Positions 564 through 7,336 of a DNA stretch of 41,688 bases are shown here, in pieces; position 1 is the stretch's first letter; every line of letters begins with the position of its first letter. The position numbers and the translations under genes are program-made. Below the pieces are notes generated by a model that worked only from the letters and a program-made list of their open reading frames with translations, did not search any database and was not told the DNA's origin. Source of the DNA: Candidatus Poseidoniaceae archaeon (lineage in GTDB: Archaea > Thermoplasmatota > Poseidoniia > Poseidoniales > Poseidoniaceae); the NCBI GenBank assembly GCA_024958795.1, contig JANXHP010000100.1, positions 1 to 41,688 on the forward strand, in the 5' to 3' direction.

Positions 564-1277
564 TTAGAAATTGTATTTTACTTTGCCGTCATTAATTTCA
601 ATATGCTTTTTTTGGATAAGCCAATGAACTATGTCCCATGGAATATGTTTGAAACCAATACCGGCTCTCCAATCTTCAATTTGATTCTCTAAAGTGGTCT
701 GTTTTCTGGGCCTTTTTGCGACGGCTGTCTTCCCAAGAATTTCAATAACTCTATCGCCCACCTGCTTTATTGTAGGATCTCCAGAATCAATAGGTGTAGA
801 TGCCGCTCTCTTTTTTGCCGGCTGATCTGTTGACATTGCTTTCTTTTTATCATTAACGGACTTCTTGGGAACTACGGTTGATTTTTTCTTTGGAGTTTTA
901 GAGGGTTTCTTTGACTTTGAATGTGGGGGCTTCCTTTCTATTCTACGCTTTCTGGATTTAAAGTGCTCAATTAAATCATCAAATCCTGTATCGGCAGACC
1001 AAATGATGAATCGAACTGAAGCAATATCACGACCAACATGCACCATGCCTAGATAGGCAGACAAATGGAAATCTAGATTGTCTTTCGAAGTCCTCCCTAC
1101 ACGGATCACAGTAATGTTATATTCAACAATTAACCATTCATTCGGAATCTTTTGTTGATTGCCCACAAACAGGATCACTTGTTGATGACTTCCTCTAGCG
1201 ATTTCATCTATAGGAATATGGTGATGTACATTTTCGAAATCAACAAAATGAACTATTTTTTCTATATTTTTATCCAT
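564..1277 (-). CDS. PIN/NYN-like nuclease domain protein with basic linker and C-terminal helical domain
   Basis: Residues 8-110 look like a PIN/NYN-type ribonuclease fold: VDFENV (D13, N16) after the first strand, a conserved acidic stretch KDNLDFHLSAYLG, and SADTGFDDLIEHF supplying further acidic residues. Such acidic clusters bind Mg2+/Mn2+ in this superfamily. Residues about 112-165 are a low-complexity Lys/Ser/Pro linker resembling a histone tail and could bind nucleic acid. Residues about 175-237 may form a small winged-helix-like domain (IPWDIVHWLIQKKHIEI). The ATG lies two bases after the stop of the upstream HTH gene, with AAGGAA as a ribosome site, so the two are almost certainly co-transcribed. 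The exact PIN subfamily and RNA substrate are unknown. Confidence 0.7.
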   Translation of the reverse strand: MDKNIEKIVHFVDFENVHHHIPIDEIARGSHQQVILFVGNQQKIPNEWLIVEYNITVIRVGRTSKDNLDFHLSAYLGMVHVGRDIASVRFIIWSADTGFDDLIEHFKSRKRRIERKPPHSKSKKPSKTPKKKSTVVPKKSVNDKKKAMSTDQPAKKRAASTPIDSGDPTIKQVGDRVIEILGKTAVAKRPRKQTTLENQIEDWRAGIGFKHIPWDIVHWLIQKKHIEINDGKVKYNF

Positions 1278-1279
1278 AA

Positions 1280-1540
1280 CTAATCATTCCTTCGTTCGCT
1301 GTTCAAAATATCCAATAGTGCAATTATTCCTATTCCTGCAGCAGCGCCTGCCAATCCGCCAATTAATGCAGCATTGAATACTTCATCTGCACCACTTTCT
1401 TTGGATTGTTTTTTGAGTTTTTTGAGTTGATACCCAATAACTTGCTGGGATGTATTTAGTTTCTCAGCAATTTCTGCTTGACTCCAACCCAATGCTCTCA
1501 ATTTGAGTAATTCAGCAATTTGCTTTGGGGTAAGGGCCAT
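1280..1540 (-). CDS. HTH protein with C-terminal glycine-zipper membrane segment
   Basis: An 86-residue protein. Residues 4-45 form a helix-turn-helix of the resolvase/sigma-region-4 type (QIAELLKLRALGWSQAEIAEKLNTSQQVIGYQLKKLKK). Residues 57-78 are a Gly/Ala-rich hydrophobic segment (ALIGGLAGAAAGIGIIALL) that probably inserts in the membrane or packs as a glycine zipper. It is the first gene of a two-gene operon with the PIN-like gene, separated by two bases. An AT-rich TTAAAT-type box about 25-30 bases upstream of the ATG suggests a leaderless transcript. A membrane-tethered autoregulator or antitoxin-like partner of the nuclease is an inference. Confidence 0.75.
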   Translation of the reverse strand: MALTPKQIAELLKLRALGWSQAEIAEKLNTSQQVIGYQLKKLKKQSKESGADEVFNAALIGGLAGAAAGIGIIALLDILNSERRND

Positions 1541-1560
1541 GTTTTATCCGATAGGCCTCA

Positions 1561-1572
1561 CCTATTTAATTT
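1561..1572 (-). promoter_or_regulatory. candidate TATA box for the HTH/PIN-like operon
   Basis: On the minus strand the sequence reads AAATTAAATAGG, centred about 25-30 bases before the ATG at 1540. This matches an archaeal TATA element for a leaderless mRNA. A short dyad ATAGG-5-CCTAT (1551-1565) overlaps its downstream edge and could be an operator for the HTH protein; this is only suggestive. Confidence 0.3.
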
Positions 1573-1685
1573 GTATTATACAAAAAATACCTTTACTTTA
1601 CAATAACTATTTGTTTATTTCATACCAAGCAAAAGATGTTGGGTTCATCCGATTACACTTAGCAATCTTATAGGACTACGAAGGG

Positions 1686-1706
1686 TTTGCAGTGGGTCGC
1701 TGCAAA
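1686..1706. repeat. 7-bp stem hairpin in intergenic DNA
   Basis: TTTGCAG and CTGCAAA flank a seven-base loop, and outer GGG/CCC runs can extend the structure imperfectly. It lies in the 212-base gap between the HTH gene start (1540) and the end of the DUF2061 gene (1753), so it may be the terminator of the DUF2061 transcript. It is followed at about 1716-1747 by the motif also seen at 468-498. Confidence 0.4.
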
Positions 1707-1752
1707 CGCTACCCTCGTTATACTCGTCAATACAGAGGAAGCCCTTTAAATT

Positions 1753-1974
1753 TTAATTTCCTGATGTAGTGGGCTCTTTGCCCCATGAAACTAATTCCCA
1801 ACCTCTTTCGTGCATGTAATAAATTCCCATTTTCAGTGGGAATTCAATGATGATGAATTTGGCTGCAGTTTCAATATCGCCTGTTAATAACCATGTGATT
1901 ATTGCGCCCGTTAATGTTGCAATTATTCTCCATACGAATGATTTGACTAATACTCGGTTTCTTGTGTATGCCAT
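1753..1974 (-). CDS. DUF2061 family small membrane protein
   Basis: A 73-residue protein with the layout of the DUF2061 family: a basic start, SFVWRIIATLTGAIITWLLTGD forming a first helix, then AAKFIIIEFPLKMGIYYMHERGWE forming a second hydrophobic segment and the conserved short tail. Family members are small two-helix inner-membrane proteins found widely in bacteria and archaea, with no established function; some occur near assimilatory or stress genes. No clear Shine-Dalgarno sequence precedes the ATG. The gene is flanked on both sides by intergenic DNA sharing the CAATAC...CCCTTT motif. Confidence 0.8.
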   Translation of the reverse strand: MAYTRNRVLVKSFVWRIIATLTGAIITWLLTGDIETAAKFIIIEFPLKMGIYYMHERGWELVSWGKEPTTSGN

Positions 1975-2063
1975 GTTAATCCGTTGTCATATCAACTATT
2001 TTTACTTAGTACATATTTCTCACAAATGTATTGTTTTTCAATACAGGACTACCCTTTGAGCAA

Positions 2064-2882
2064 TTATATTATTTCCAATATATCATTCCATCTCTTCGAT
2101 GAACCCTTACGGAACAAATTCTCATGAAAATCACGTTGTTGGTAATGGGCAGTACGAGCAAGTCTACCGCGATGATCATAACATCCGTAAGCGGTGTGAA
2201 CAGGAACCATGACTTTACTCAATTCTATTGATGGGCCAGTTGCTGGTGGCATTTCTTGGCTAACATCCTCTGTCACTCCGTCGTAAATTACCATCTCTTT
2301 TGATGGACATTCAAATGGTTGACCAATGTGCAAACTAATTGAGCCTTCAGCAGGTTTTACTGGTTTCCATCTACCTCTTCGACCATTATCAAGCCAAGCA
2401 ACCATAGCTTTCATTTGCGGTATTGTAGCCATTGCAATGTGAGATAATTCCCACCAACCCTTACTCCTTGCTAAAGTCACATGATGCACTCCTGGTATTA
2501 TGTCGCGATTGTCTAAAGCATCTGCATAAGTACGACATAATTCTTCAAGACGGATGGTGAAAATTGGTAGTACGCCGATGTTAATGTCTTGTAATCGGTA
2601 TGGATTTGCTAGTTCTCCTAAAAGCAAAAATGGCTTTCGTTCACTCATTGCTGAACCACTATGCTCTTCAAGCAACTGTTCAATAGTTGCAGAATCACTT
2701 GCATAATTTGAAAGATATTTTTGTAATTCTATACCTTCTAAATTTAGAGTGGTATCTTTTTCACTTATTGTGCAAGCTAAATCAATAACTTTATTCTGAG
2801 TAAATAGGATTGAATTTTTGGGTAGAGAGACTGGAGAAGAAGCGGAGGAGTAAGGCCAAAGTCTTGGAGATGATTCGCCCAT
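2064..2882 (-). CDS. conserved-looking protein of unknown function, 272 aa
   Basis: A soluble protein with no signal peptide and no membrane helix. No family is recognised. Distinctive stretches are NIGVLPIFTIRLEELCRTYADAL (about residues 100-122), SKGWWELSHIAMATIPQMK (about 139-157) and a C-terminal HTAYGCYDHRGRLARTAHYQQRD-like region rich in His, Tyr and Arg that could bind nucleic acid. An in-frame stop nine codons upstream and the lack of other start codons fix the ATG at 2882, although the GAGG ribosome-like site is far away (about 17 bases). It follows the zinc-ribbon gene by 38 bases and probably shares its transcript. Confidence 0.6.
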   Translation of the reverse strand: MGESSPRLWPYSSASSPVSLPKNSILFTQNKVIDLACTISEKDTTLNLEGIELQKYLSNYASDSATIEQLLEEHSGSAMSERKPFLLLGELANPYRLQDINIGVLPIFTIRLEELCRTYADALDNRDIIPGVHHVTLARSKGWWELSHIAMATIPQMKAMVAWLDNGRRGRWKPVKPAEGSISLHIGQPFECPSKEMVIYDGVTEDVSQEMPPATGPSIELSKVMVPVHTAYGCYDHRGRLARTAHYQQRDFHENLFRKGSSKRWNDILEII

Positions 2883-2920
2883 AATTAGCGGGGGGCAACT
2901 CCTCTTTCAATAATTATCGC

Positions 2921-3400
2921 TTAAGCAGTAAAGGTTTCTTCATGCAAGCATTGTGGGCAAGTTACCTTGATAGGACGTGTTGAAGGAATGCCCAGCCTTA
3001 CTCCACAAGCAGGACATAGAATCGCTTGGTCAACTTGCGCTCGGCGATGTTTTGCTCCTTCGGTGGGGTCGTACTGATAATGAAGATTAACCTTCTCAAT
3101 AATTTGAGGAGATGATGTACTTGGTTGTGAAATTTCAGAGTCAAAGGGATTCTCTTTGTGTTGCTGTGAAACAAGACTTCTTCCCGCTGATGGATCATAC
3201 TCTCCGGCAGCATTGTAGCCGGACGGCGCTTCGTTAGCACTTTGTACAGATATAGCCGCAAGTTGCTGTTTAACCTCGCCCTCATCGATTCCATATTGCC
3301 TTGCAAGTTGATCAATTTGCAGCATTTGTTCATACCCCGAAAGAGAGGCCAATACCGTTAACTCAGACGCTGGAATCGTGCTCATATTTACTCGTAGCAT
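2921..3400 (-). CDS. zinc-ribbon protein of unknown function
   Basis: A protein of about 159 residues if the ATG at 3400 is used; AAGGTAG lies about seven bases upstream of it, whereas an upstream TTG at 3451 has no such site. The N-terminal third (about residues 10-55) is helical and resembles a small helix-turn-helix or UBA-like module. The middle is low complexity (Ser/Pro/Gln). The C-terminus is a four-cysteine ribbon, LCPACGVRLG...VTCPQCLHEE. It is likely co-transcribed with the unknown gene that ends at 2064. A transcription- or RNA-related role would fit the ribbon but cannot be shown. Confidence 0.65.
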   Translation of the reverse strand: MLRVNMSTIPASELTVLASLSGYEQMLQIDQLARQYGIDEGEVKQQLAAISVQSANEAPSGYNAAGEYDPSAGRSLVSQQHKENPFDSEISQPSTSSPQIIEKVNLHYQYDPTEGAKHRRAQVDQAILCPACGVRLGIPSTRPIKVTCPQCLHEETFTA

Positions 3401-3539
3401 TGCACTACCTTTCAGTCTTGACCTATGTTGTGCATTATCAATTCGCCTCAATTCGGGAACTGATTAACGTGATAAGGGAATTATCATATCGCCGAAGGCC
3501 TTTAAACGGAAGCGCGAGCGCCGGCGCTCAATAGGTGGT

Positions 3540-4028
3540 ATGATGATGAAGCCAACAGCAGCACGTCGCTTCACTCGCGATGTAATATCAAAGATGTCAG
3601 CAAAGGAACGTTCTATGTCTGCGCGTTCTATTTCTTGTGGAGAAACTATGAATAAAGCACACACGATTTTCTCTATGGATTCAGTGGCAATAGTTCTTGA
3701 TAAAATTACCCAAAACAATTGGGACCATGTATTCATCATCAACGAAGATGGAGTTCCGATGGGAAGAATTCATGCTGTTGATATCCTGAAATTAATCGCT
3801 CGTAAAACAGTAAATCGTTCAGTTGCATGGATGCATGCAGTACCTGCACAACAATTGGTAAATATTCCTCCAATGACAGTTAGAGTAAACACTCCGCTTC
3901 TCAAGGCTGGAGCATTGATGCTAGCACACGATATCAACCAAATAGCAGTAGTAGATGATGATGGAACATTAGTTGGTGTTGTAGGACATAACACAATGGC
4001 AAGGCATATGCCAAAATTCATTATTTGA
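3540..4028 (+). CDS. CBS-domain pair protein
   Basis: A protein of 160-162 residues, essentially one Bateman module. The first CBS repeat spans about residues 30-90 (MNKAHTIFSMDSVAIVLDKI...VFIINEDGVPMGRIHAVDIL) and the second about 100-160 (MTVRVNTPLLKAGALML...IAVVDDDGTLVGVVGHNTMAR). CBS pairs bind adenine nucleotides or S-adenosyl compounds and usually regulate a partner; no catalytic domain is fused here. Three consecutive ATG codons (3540, 3543, 3546) follow GGTGG at 3534-3538; the third has the best spacing. It diverges from the zinc-ribbon gene and converges on the DUF373 gene with a gap of ten bases. Confidence 0.85.
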   Translation: MMMKPTAARRFTRDVISKMSAKERSMSARSISCGETMNKAHTIFSMDSVAIVLDKITQNNWDHVFIINEDGVPMGRIHAVDILKLIARKTVNRSVAWMHAVPAQQLVNIPPMTVRVNTPLLKAGALMLAHDINQIAVVDDDGTLVGVVGHNTMARHMPKFII

Positions 4029-4038
4029 AATAATAATT

Positions 4039-5169
4039 TCAAATGCCCCAATATCTGTCAGACTGAGCTTGTTTTGATTGCAAGGCTTTTACGATTGTCA
4101 TCGTAATCCACAATAATGCAATCCACAATATAGGTGTAGACAGGTCATTTATAATATTGTAAAATCCTAATTCATAACCTGCTGCATTTGAATTCCCTAA
4201 GACATCTATTGAGATAGTTAGTCCTACATCGACGAATGAATATACTACCATACCAAACATACCAAGCACTACCAATCTTCCAGAGAATGAACCTCTCTTC
4301 AATCTCAACAGCATGAATCCAGCAGTAGAGGTTAGGAATGCTACGATAATCCAAGCAAGTGAAGCGTGGATGACTTCAAGCCAAAGAACAGAATTTGTAG
4401 TTGCTTGAGTAATTCCTTCACTATATTGACGCCATCCTTCTGCTACTGCAAATATCGCACTGAATAGAGTTGAAAACCAAAGTAATGTTGACAACATTGC
4501 TGCATCTGCGTTTTCTCTCATCTCTTGAATTACCTTGTTTACAGTTGATTCAATTCCAGCACCCTTGCTGAAAATATACAATCCAATGGCTAGAGGTAAT
4601 GCACCTATGACAAAGCCACCAATTGAATTTGGAAGCATTATTCCCAGGCCAATAATTGCTAAAACAAGACCGAATGGAATCATTATTTTTGCTCTCCATT
4701 TTGGGTCTTCAAGAGCCTTGACAATGTAATAATATGTGCCTTCAATACCCTTTGATTGTTTAACAATTATCTTTTCAACATGATTAATTCTCACCTGTGA
4801 TTGAATAATTGGCAATACTGATTCATCTTCAGCGCCATCGGTAACTAAGATTGCTTCATCTGGTTGGAAAGCGGCCACCACTTCCTCTAGTTGGGCTGCA
4901 ATCGCTCTATCAGAGCGCATTCCAACCTTCTCATCACCAGTTAATATCGCCACTTCGACCTCATCATCTTCCGTGTTTGCTTCCTTCAGTGTATCGTGCT
5001 GTCTCAAAGCCCCTAATATTGCATTAGTATCGCTTTCTTCAGGGTCAGCAATACCCAACTTCAAGGCTGCAGTCAGCACTTGACGTCGCCCAATTACCGG
5101 CCCTCTAATCGAAGTTTTATTCCCGAGATCATTATCTCGGTCAACTGTCAATACTAAGGTTCGGGTCAT
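4039..5169 (-). CDS. DUF373 family multi-spanning membrane protein
   Basis: 376 residues. Residues 1-150 are a soluble N-terminal domain (LVLTVDRDNDLG near the start, AILTGDEKVG, EAILVTDGAEDE), with strand-Asp motifs resembling a nucleotide- or phosphate-binding fold. From about residue 165 there are roughly six hydrophobic helices, including PFGLVLAIIGLGIMLPNSIG and a C-terminal pair ending before a polar tail. This is the layout of the archaeal DUF373 family, whose function is unknown. GGTGA six bases before the ATG supports the start. It precedes priL, on the same strand, by 102 bases in the opposite order of transcription, so the two may have separate promoters. Confidence 0.85.
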   Translation of the reverse strand: MTRTLVLTVDRDNDLGNKTSIRGPVIGRRQVLTAALKLGIADPEESDTNAILGALRQHDTLKEANTEDDEVEVAILTGDEKVGMRSDRAIAAQLEEVVAAFQPDEAILVTDGAEDESVLPIIQSQVRINHVEKIIVKQSKGIEGTYYYIVKALEDPKWRAKIMIPFGLVLAIIGLGIMLPNSIGGFVIGALPLAIGLYIFSKGAGIESTVNKVIQEMRENADAAMLSTLLWFSTLFSAIFAVAEGWRQYSEGITQATTNSVLWLEVIHASLAWIIVAFLTSTAGFMLLRLKRGSFSGRLVVLGMFGMVVYSFVDVGLTISIDVLGNSNAAGYELGFYNIINDLSTPILWIALLWITMTIVKALQSKQAQSDRYWGI

Positions 5170-5271
5170 GGCGTTTCACCTGTGGCTAATACCACCTATT
5201 TCCTCCTCCGTTTCAAAACCTTCGCGTGATTGCTATAATGAAATAGCCCTTTTTGGCGATAGAAATACGCA

Positions 5272-6528
5272 TCAAACCTCTGAATCATCAGATTTTTCAT
5301 TTTCTAGTGGTTTATCATCTTCCGAATTGTTTTGTGGAACACCACTTGCAATTTCAGCAGCCTTATTCTTTGCATTCCAGCGTTGTGTTGCCCTGATATA
5401 TTTGAGAGGATGGTCCATCCAAGGTTGGTCACACAATCTATCATCACCTGGTAATACAGGGCAATTGTGATTGACTTTCAATTTGCCACAACCTGCTGGA
5501 GTATATGCATGTTCATAGACATGAGAAACCTGATAATTTGTTGTGCTTTCACTAAAGTCGGGCGCTCCGCGGAAGAAATTGACAGTGGATTCAGTAGGTA
5601 ATCCGATTGTAGCGGATATTGAGGCAAGAAATAATCTGCCAAAGTGATTAACATTTACTCCATTGGACAAATCGCCAACAATTTTTCTCATACATGGTGG
5701 CCATTCACTTTCTTCAGCACCAACCAATGCAATAGCCTCACTTGTCTTACTGGCCATTAAGTTTCGTAACATTCCAACCGGTTCCGCTAACCTAATCGCC
5801 AAATCGGTTGTTACATCTTGCATCTTTTCTAATGCCTCAGCCTCAACCCCTCGCTTTATTCTCTCTCTTAGTAAGCGAGCTAATTTAGCCGATGAACCAT
5901 ATTGATTCTCTTCGAATAGAGTAATCCAACCATCATTGATATCACAATTTGGCAATCTCCATCTAGCGCCAGTAATCTTTGGACAGATTTCAATAAAATC
6001 AGATAGACCAATCTTCCACAATGGACCTGAACTAGATTGTCGCATTTCTCTTATTCCACCACTTGCATTGACCATCATTGGATTGTTTAGGCCATGGTCA
6101 TCTTCAGACTTAATCTGTGAAATATATGTCCGTGCAATAATGTCTATTGAGGATTTGTCTTTGATCAGTAATTGTTCAGCCCGAGCAGCTTCAGCCTGCG
6201 CCCAACGCGCAATCAATCGTTCATCCTCACTAGCACAAACCACTAACCGAGCATAATAGAATGAAAATGCTTCAATGATTCTCCCCTCATCAGTATGTAT
6301 ATCGCCACCAATAACCTCCACACCTTCACTGGAATTGATTGAATCAACCAACCTTATTCTTGCCCTTTGTCTTGCTTTTTCCATCCACACGCCATCGAGT
6401 AATTCATCCAAGTCAATCTGGTGTTCAATAGCCATCTGTTTAATCCATGTAGCAGCCTGTGGTAAGAATGGATAGCGCGCAAAAGTAACCTCATCCGAGA
6501 TATTCGGAAGAGATGTTGGCACTGGCAT
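5272..6528 (-). CDS. priL: DNA primase large subunit PriL (4Fe-4S)
   Basis: The large, iron-sulfur subunit of archaeal/eukaryotic-type primase, partner of PriS in RNA/DNA primer synthesis. The C-terminal domain carries the four expected cysteines: C279 in PPCMRKI, C347 in AGCGKLK, C356 in NHNCP and C366 in RLCDQPW, the spacing that ligates a [4Fe-4S] cluster. The N-terminal half is the helical, PriS-contacting region. I take the ATG at 6528 (GGAG four bases upstream) rather than the longer frame from 6564, which would run into the divergent mptE start. About 419 residues, within the family's usual range. A short acidic tail (residues about 400-419) follows the Fe-S domain. Confidence 0.92.
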   Translation of the reverse strand: MPVPTSLPNISDEVTFARYPFLPQAATWIKQMAIEHQIDLDELLDGVWMEKARQRARIRLVDSINSSEGVEVIGGDIHTDEGRIIEAFSFYYARLVVCASEDERLIARWAQAEAARAEQLLIKDKSSIDIIARTYISQIKSEDDHGLNNPMMVNASGGIREMRQSSSGPLWKIGLSDFIEICPKITGARWRLPNCDINDGWITLFEENQYGSSAKLARLLRERIKRGVEAEALEKMQDVTTDLAIRLAEPVGMLRNLMASKTSEAIALVGAEESEWPPCMRKIVGDLSNGVNVNHFGRLFLASISATIGLPTESTVNFFRGAPDFSESTTNYQVSHVYEHAYTPAGCGKLKVNHNCPVLPGDDRLCDQPWMDHPLKYIRATQRWNAKNKAAEIASGVPQNNSEDDKPLENEKSDDSEV

Positions 6529-6553
6529 ATTGCTCCATGAGGGGCGACAGCAT

Positions 6554-7336
6554 ATGAACTTCAATAATAGAAGGTGTATTCTTGAAGGTCAGCCCACTCA
6601 CCTTGTCATGGGCGATGTAGAACACAACCCGCTCATTGCGATACAAGACGATGTGCGTACTCATTTTGGTTGGAATTTACAAGATGATGTTGATAGCGCA
6701 AAATCATTCCAACAAGCATTTGAAAATAATGTTCCGTTTGGCGTTAGTAAATGGAATACGGATGAAAGAAATCAAGCGTTGGGCAATCTACAAATCAAAT
6801 TGCTAAAGGCAAATGCAGTGATTTTTGTTGGTGCTGCAGTAAACGAAAATGAACTCGATGAAATGGTAGGAGAGGGAGTTGTTTTCATTGCAGCTGATGG
6901 GGCTGTTGGAGCATTGCCGGAAGATGCGGAATTAGCTTGTATTGTCAGTGATTTTGATGGCACACCACATCTAGAGCAAGCAGCAAAAAATGGTGCTACA
7001 ATAATTGCACATGCACATGGAGATAACTTGGCTGCTTGGAATGACTGTGTTGAATCATGGTCTCATTTTGCTAATCCCCCTTCATTGATATTAAGTCATC
7101 AAACTCCACATCTTTACCACGGAATGCACAATTGGGGTGGATTTACTGATGGTGATAGAGCGTTGTGTATGGCCTATACCTTAGGTGTTAATTTTGACGA
7201 TGTATACTTGGTGGGTTATACTCTCTCTCGCGTTGGCCAATGGTCTGGTAGAACTGTAGTGAGTAAGAAATTAGAAAAATTACAATGGATGGCAACTGTA
7301 GTTCAAATGTTGGGATTAGAACAGCAATTAGATTGA
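6554..7336 (+). CDS. mptE: 6-hydroxymethyl-7,8-dihydropterin pyrophosphokinase, MptE-type (DUF115)
   Basis: An archaeal enzyme that transfers pyrophosphate from ATP to 6-hydroxymethyl-7,8-dihydropterin on the way to folate or methanopterin-type C1 carriers. Recognisable motifs in order are VFVGAAVNENELDEM, FIAADGAVGALP, IVSDFDGTP, IIAHAHGDNLAAWN, GFTDGDRALCMAYTLG and DDVYLVGYTL, which match the MptE/DUF115 family. The ATG at 6554 follows GAGGGG; a TTG at 6530 in the same frame is less likely. Its start is only 25 bases from the divergent priL start, so the two promoters must reach into each other's coding sequence. About 260 residues, normal for the family. Confidence 0.88.
   Translation: MNFNNRRCILEGQPTHLVMGDVEHNPLIAIQDDVRTHFGWNLQDDVDSAKSFQQAFENNVPFGVSKWNTDERNQALGNLQIKLLKANAVIFVGAAVNENELDEMVGEGVVFIAADGAVGALPEDAELACIVSDFDGTPHLEQAAKNGATIIAHAHGDNLAAWNDCVESWSHFANPPSLILSHQTPHLYHGMHNWGGFTDGDRALCMAYTLGVNFDDVYLVGYTLSRVGQWSGRTVVSKKLEKLQWMATVVQMLGLEQQLD

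Follow-up and report, generated by a model that had tools for sequence, protein, structure and literature searches.

Even in bacteria it is an open question how immune operons are silenced and then induced; in the literature searched we found no described archaeal equivalent of the controllers considered here. CapW/BrxR (PMC9122601), CapH together with CapP, and CapK together with CapS (PMC13373217) are such controllers: a DNA-binding protein, whose gene immediately precedes immune operons of various kinds, binds repeats at their shared promoter and represses them, and one regulator family goes with many cargo systems. RptR is a small homodimeric repressor which binds a palindromic site, is conserved together with this site and is associated with type I RM systems (PMC12255303). 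The TTRs combine a DNA-binding domain and a membrane segment in one protein, they occur in archaea too, and the single-pass form is the most frequent (PMC10269533); phage or defence is not mentioned in the text of that survey.

The window of 41,688 nucleotides which contains the locus presented here is a contig in its full length (C39) and belongs to the 1.88-Mb genome, itself incomplete, of a Candidatus Poseidoniaceae archaeon. Its relatives in the public collection are two MAGs, one assigned to Candidatus Poseidoniaceae (MGIIa-L2) and one to marine Euryarchaeota. An initial annotation of the sequence described a two-gene operon with a small DNA-binding gene first and a PIN-fold nuclease gene second, and likened it to the VapBC toxin-antitoxin order. 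Both open reading frames and the operon layout are as described, and 2 bp separate the stop of the HTH gene from the start of the nuclease gene. The interpretation has changed: the same HTH gene and a matching operator precede different nucleases and defence systems, and for this reason we read the HTH gene as a portable switch for defence operons rather than as half of a toxin-antitoxin pair. The features of the locus are:

1280-1540, minus strand: gene for the HTH protein, whose hydrophobic tail is rich in glycine, 86 aa, first gene of the operon
564-1277, minus strand: gene for the PIN7-domain protein, 237 aa, second gene, in the variable cargo position in the window's genome
1570-1584, no strand assigned: proposed operator, the 15-bp perfect palindrome TTTGTATTATACAAA, seen in the sequence and beginning 44 bp upstream of the start codon of the HTH gene
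1541-1570, minus strand: proposed core promoter and 5' leader from operator to start codon, with ttaaatag as a TATA-like candidate
1641-1716, minus strand: one copy of a repeat which is dispersed in intergenic regions (GGGTAGCGTTTGCAGCGACCC...AATCGGATGAACCC)
446-533, no strand assigned: imperfect palindrome of 88 bp with 25-nt arms, 88% complementary, immediately downstream of the PIN7 gene

The 446-533 palindrome is possibly a terminator or the end of an element; a search of Rfam with it gave below-cut-off matches only, and a scan for bacterial-type promoters and terminators gave a signal at shuffle level. Part of it (461-526) is similar to 1712-1747 upstream of the HTH gene, and thus related repeats bracket the operon. 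A 272-aa open reading frame (2064-2882, minus strand) separates the operon from the conserved archaeal genes beyond it (DUF373, PriL) and had zero matches in Pfam, NCBIfam, PHROGs and PADLOC.

The two proteins of the operon

The HTH protein belongs to a family of 80-96 aa. Its best Pfam match is Sigma70_r4_2 (2.3e-5, below the curated cut-off), its best NCBIfam match is Tfx TIGR00721 (3.8e-5, far below the cut-off), and a weak PDB profile match to the archaeal transcription regulator 8hno (2.7e-4) covers the HTH stretch only. Pfam and PADLOC gave no WYL or other regulatory domain, and a defence-database scan of the window proteins returned weak matches to the HTH stretch only. The predicted structure is all-helical with moderate confidence (mean pLDDT 73.7), and the recognition helix is SQQVIGYQLKKLK. 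The C-terminal part contains the hydrophobic Gly/Ala-rich segment ALIGGLAGAAAGIGIIALL with a mean Kyte-Doolittle (KD) value of 2.21. The combination of an HTH with a glycine-rich membrane-like segment had been noted before, and both parts are indeed present, the hydrophobic segment being conserved: in the cargo-bearing clades the 19-residue segment has a mean KD of 1.8-2.2 (1.6 in the shortened G271 copy). In five of the six members of a clade without cargo it is degenerate, with Asp and Arg inside and a mean KD of about 1.3. On the octanol scale most tails come out at 0 to -2 kcal/mol, which is marginal, and because the tail is only moderately hydrophobic its insertion into the membrane is uncertain. 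Judged from its sequence, the protein is probably attached to the membrane through this tail.

The 237-aa protein matches Pfam PIN7 (PF18475) at residues 11-108 with E=1.2e-18 and 68.1 bits against a cut-off of 34. NYN (PF01936) reaches 0.015 only, and the VapC-type PIN (PF01850) is absent from the Pfam listing of the protein at E up to 1. The PIN7 domain is followed by a basic linker rich in Lys, Pro and Ser (about 110-165) and a conserved C-terminal domain (about 168-237). A relative (L003) is 72% identical from end to end, linker and C-terminal domain included, and like L036, L037 and L038 it scores above the PIN7 cut-off. The acidic residues singled out in the initial annotation as a possible active site, D13, N16 and later Asp residues, proved to be conserved: D13, E15, N16, D66, D69, D96 and D100-D101 are kept in L003, and the D13-N16 region and the motif KDNLDFHL are present also in the PIN7 fragment of genome G038. 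From the conserved D13, N16, D66, D69, D96 and D100 we infer nuclease activity. The predicted structure is unusable (mean pLDDT 34.6).

Five of the 340 class genomes contain PIN7, and in the window's genome alone is it preceded by the HTH gene. In the other four the gene ahead of PIN7 is methyltransferase-like (G195, G196, G208) or an oxidoreductase gene (G038); at the G038 locus a gene for a PLD-SNF2 protein also adjoins. More distant PIN7 relatives, about 25% identical, are very common on conjugative enterobacterial plasmids, with about 2200 plasmid records. At the two bacterial plasmid loci inspected (L107, L108) relaxase, FinO and other accessory genes adjoin, and a small HTH partner is missing at both. 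In L108 the PIN7 relative is located downstream of FinO and a PLD nuclease gene is nearby. One weak PIN7 match is found in an unannotated uncultured phage, and relatives of the HTH protein among phage or plasmid records were not found. A viral origin was considered and rejected, since IMG/VR gave confirmed relatives of neither protein.

Cargo, proposed operator and leader

Surface oceans are rich in archaea of Marine Group II, which are uncultured and whose defence is poorly known. The HTH protein was found in 35 of the 340 class genomes and, as far as searched, in Poseidoniales (Marine Group II) only; the 390 sampled genomes of the phylum held no convincing full-length copy outside this order, a distant match in G492 (L103) being short and in a different context. 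Neighbourhoods of the HTH gene were read in 31 genomes, and the next gene on the same strand was readable in 18. In 17 of these the cargo follows directly on the same strand within about 10 bp (gaps of -11 to +10 bp, the exception being +145 bp in G274), and in 15 it is a nuclease or defence gene, with functions assigned by homology in MAG assemblies which are incomplete. The cargo is PIN7 in the window's genome (G000), an RNase_Zc3h12a-type NYN protein (PF11977) in G030, G183, G239 and five genomes of the genus g11 (G145, G282, G284, G285, G287), an HNH protein in G111, G278 and G035 (in G035 after a coiled-coil gene), in G274 a PLD nuclease-ATPase of NgoFVII type, which has a P-loop, and in both G128 and G190 MksF-MksE-MksB accompanied by a JetD-like protein (G128 scores: MksE 1.4e-19, JetD 7.8e-9). 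The expectation that a small DNA-binding gene leads a nuclease gene thus holds for the order of the operon; it does not hold for a fixed partner, as the second gene varies.

Other arrangements were also seen. In G245 the HTH is fused to the HsdM_N domain of a type I methyltransferase (3.3e-22), and in G278 (L100) a more distant HTH copy heads a ResIII-helicase operon (1746-7188) which codes for an HTH-fused protein of 330 aa, a protein of 356 aa and a ResIII/DEAD helicase of 1125 aa with PADLOC similarity to PbeA. The Poseidoniales operons with MksFEB and a JetD-like protein behind the HTH gene (L101 1816-7433, L090 3048-8625) are divergent Wadjet-type operons; they have probably been missed by standard defence annotation because the PADLOC match is weak.

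As a control for the enrichment of cargo we used the frequency of PF11977 across the class. This NYN family is present in 47 of 340 genomes with about one copy each, and eight copies are placed directly behind the HTH gene, while the expectation by chance is about 0.002, an estimate which assumes about 1700 genes per genome. These placements are therefore not due to chance, and with the five genomes of g11 counted once they represent four lineages. The PF11977 genes inspected elsewhere (L109-L120) are members of different subfamilies, and an HTH gene of the window family is missing in front of them. It should be noted that the NYN proteins of G030 and G183 are only about 20% identical to each other, and that in the HTH tree a single clade with 99/99 support spans five types of cargo.

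A 15-bp palindrome is found just upstream of the HTH gene in 28 of the 28 cases checked, with one mismatch in G030 and G135. In the window's 1.88-Mb genome TTTGTATTATACAAA is the sole such site, even when one mismatch is allowed, and it abuts an AT-rich TATA-like stretch. The 350 kb of sequence fetched contained 35 sites, which lie upstream of HTH genes, and none elsewhere once L104 and L106, also ahead of HTH gene copies, were counted. The operator comes in four classes which track the recognition helix: the SQQ- helix goes with TTTGTATWATACAAA, SRQA- with TTGGCATWATGCCAA, SKSS- with TAGGAAATATTCCTA and SQPS- with CCTATCAWTGATAGG. In G239, where the helix SQQTVAYN is intermediate, the operator is intermediate as well (TTGGTATAATACCAA). 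A single perfect palindrome is only modestly rare in such AT-rich leaders (0-19 of 300 shuffles); what speaks for an operator is that the site recurs and co-varies with the helix.

In most clades the site adjoins a TTTATAT-like box (tttatat in G030, G183 and G238). In the SKSS clade (g11) it starts at -23 from the start codon, and G035 has two sites, one on either side of a tttaaa; because of these two arrangements the positions suggest repression rather than activation.

The leader appears to move together with the HTH gene. Three genomes from three genera (G030, G183, G238) have a 150-bp leader which is 85-91% identical and HTH genes which are 90-93% identical, whereas outside leader and HTH gene the identity is about 50-58%, the random level upstream. 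Downstream DNA is at random level between G030 and G183; G238 ends at the contig edge, and its visible part resembles the G183 cargo. The aligned block begins at a repeat of 75-95 bp, which marks its 5' edge in all three genomes, and stops at or just after the HTH gene. This dispersed repeat is found in 32 of 146 Poseidoniales genomes in 1-4 copies each, which are intergenic, often just 5' of accessory genes, and up to 96% identical even across families. It is possible that the repeat is a site of recombination or insertion. In G094 (L122) it occurs once beside a serine recombinase (646-1497) and a methyltransferase-like gene. Serine recombinases with Resolvase and Recombinase domains are also encoded next to the PIN7 locus of G038 (L055 1136-1987) and directly before the HTH-HsdM fusion of G245 (L099 1907-2788). 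A DUF2130 protein (L124 98-1411, 2.6e-74) is encoded directly behind a copy of the repeat, and in L135, from another genus, a similar-looking protein has the same position behind the repeat.

Proposed mode of action and alternatives

At the level of sequence the conserved leadership of the operon, the operator, its co-variation with the recognition helix and the exchange of cargo are demonstrated. With good probability the HTH protein is an autoregulated portable repressor module for nuclease and defence operons, and the nuclease is exchangeable cargo. Counting against this are the second genes of G112, G300 and G308, which code for small domain-less proteins, and the clade of six genomes (G064, G069, G071, G251, G316, G317) with no co-directional cargo, in which the HTH gene stands alone before a convergent gene.

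The model postulates that a dimer of the HTH protein binds the 15-bp palindrome abutting or overlapping the promoter and so keeps expression of the operon low. The glycine-rich hydrophobic tail would place the protein at the membrane or drive its self-assembly, and one may speculate that virus entry or membrane stress releases the repressor from the operator. Derepression would yield the product of the second gene, in the window the PIN7 nuclease, which is expected to cut RNA and is carried on a putatively nucleic-acid-binding basic linker and a C-terminal domain, and elsewhere an NYN, HNH, PLD or Wadjet-type product. The leader, consisting of repeat, promoter, operator and HTH gene, would travel between genomes as a unit and join different cargo. 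A more far-reaching version, which we offer tentatively and hold to be rather doubtful as a whole, is that this is an undescribed archaeal module for control of innate immunity: a mobile promoter-operator-gene cassette in which a tiny membrane-attached repressor directly senses disturbance of the membrane, as by virus entry, and switches on the nuclease system behind it, and which has spread in Poseidoniales by recombination at the dispersed repeat.

In a type II VapBC pair the HTH protein would be an antitoxin which blocks the PIN nuclease by binding to it and which also represses the operon. The order of the genes, the 2-bp spacing, the small DNA-binding first gene, the PIN-like fold and conserved acids of the second, and a palindrome upstream, as autoregulated TA operons have, all agree with such a pair. 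The reading fails because the four other PIN7 copies of the class lack the HTH gene upstream; the two genes, whose co-occurrence the initial annotation had proposed to check, are rarely together (one of five PIN7 copies), and the HTH gene pairs elsewhere with unrelated proteins. Nor does PIN7 belong to the VapC PIN family, and Pfam gives no match to a VapB-like domain in the HTH protein. VapB-type antitoxins combine a DNA-binding domain (AbrB, RHH, Phd or HTH) with a toxin-binding tail; the window protein has an HTH, and its tail is a Gly-rich helix of hydrophobic character. A single inhibitor for PIN7, HNH, PLD and SMC proteins is implausible. The VapBC label was accordingly rejected as quite improbable.

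Membrane effectors are common in abortive defence, and the tail, kept in cargo-bearing clades and degenerate in five of the six members of the cargo-less clade, could be taken to mean that the HTH-tail protein is itself a glycine-zipper effector which damages the membrane on infection; the nuclease would then be another effector acting independently, and the HTH would serve autoregulation only. This we find unlikely: the tail is short and its hydrophobicity only moderate, and the conservation of HTH and operator throughout, together with their co-variation, fits a regulator. One could also regard the two genes as ordinary neighbours, a generic Poseidoniales HTH regulator and accessory genes which share variable islands; all cargo genes are patchy and accessory, and the dispersed repeat and the serine recombinases mark variable sites. 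Such neighbourhood would hardly place cargo on the same strand and no more than about 10 bp away in 17 of the 18 readable genomes, make it nuclease or defence genes in 15 of 18, or bring 8 of roughly 47 class NYN genes to this position, and we consider it very unlikely.

Comparison with described controllers

The small HTH gene with its operator offers a handle, by which any operon found behind it becomes a candidate defence system. Already candidates by position are the PIN7, NYN, HNH and PLD proteins, for which PADLOC gives no matches or weak partial ones. If the tail senses the membrane, a single protein would serve as infection sensor, a simpler arrangement than in the controllers of the papers considered here.

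The resemblance to Tfx-type archaeal regulators is weak and confined to the HTH stretch. Wadjet/MksBEFG is a known system, which is cargo behind the HTH gene in G128 and G190 and does not occur at the window's locus. The C proteins of RM systems are small HTH autoregulators which time the restriction enzyme beside a methyltransferase; the window operon is without a methyltransferase partner, and the single case elsewhere is the fused HsdM, so the locus does not fit a C protein. The TTRs have a DNA-binding domain and a membrane segment in one chain; in the window family an HTH is joined to a hydrophobic segment which may span the membrane. It should be noted that the TTR class requires membrane localization, for which the tail is a marginal candidate.

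The best reading of these comparisons is a role comparable to that of CapW/BrxR, CapH and RptR. RptR differs in being bacterial, in having TAGCTA in three direct repeats and in its association with type I RM, whereas the cargo of the window family varies widely; this comparison is one of descriptions. Like the genes for the Cap controllers, the HTH gene is located directly upstream of diverse immune and nuclease operons (15 of 18 loci) and a conserved operator is found at the promoter of the operon, here the palindrome in all 28 leaders. The Cap controllers are larger WYL-wHTH proteins, an HTH protein with a peptidase or a STAS-wHTH protein with a kinase, and they answer DNA damage or ssDNA. 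The window family, set apart from them by these descriptions, is one archaeal protein of 80-96 aa with a hydrophobic tail and with neither a sensor domain nor a second protein. The locus thus compares best with a controller of known role and not with a VapBC pair: a DNA-binding protein with its operator upstream of diverse immune operons, yet a different protein, which is tiny, archaeal and tailed.
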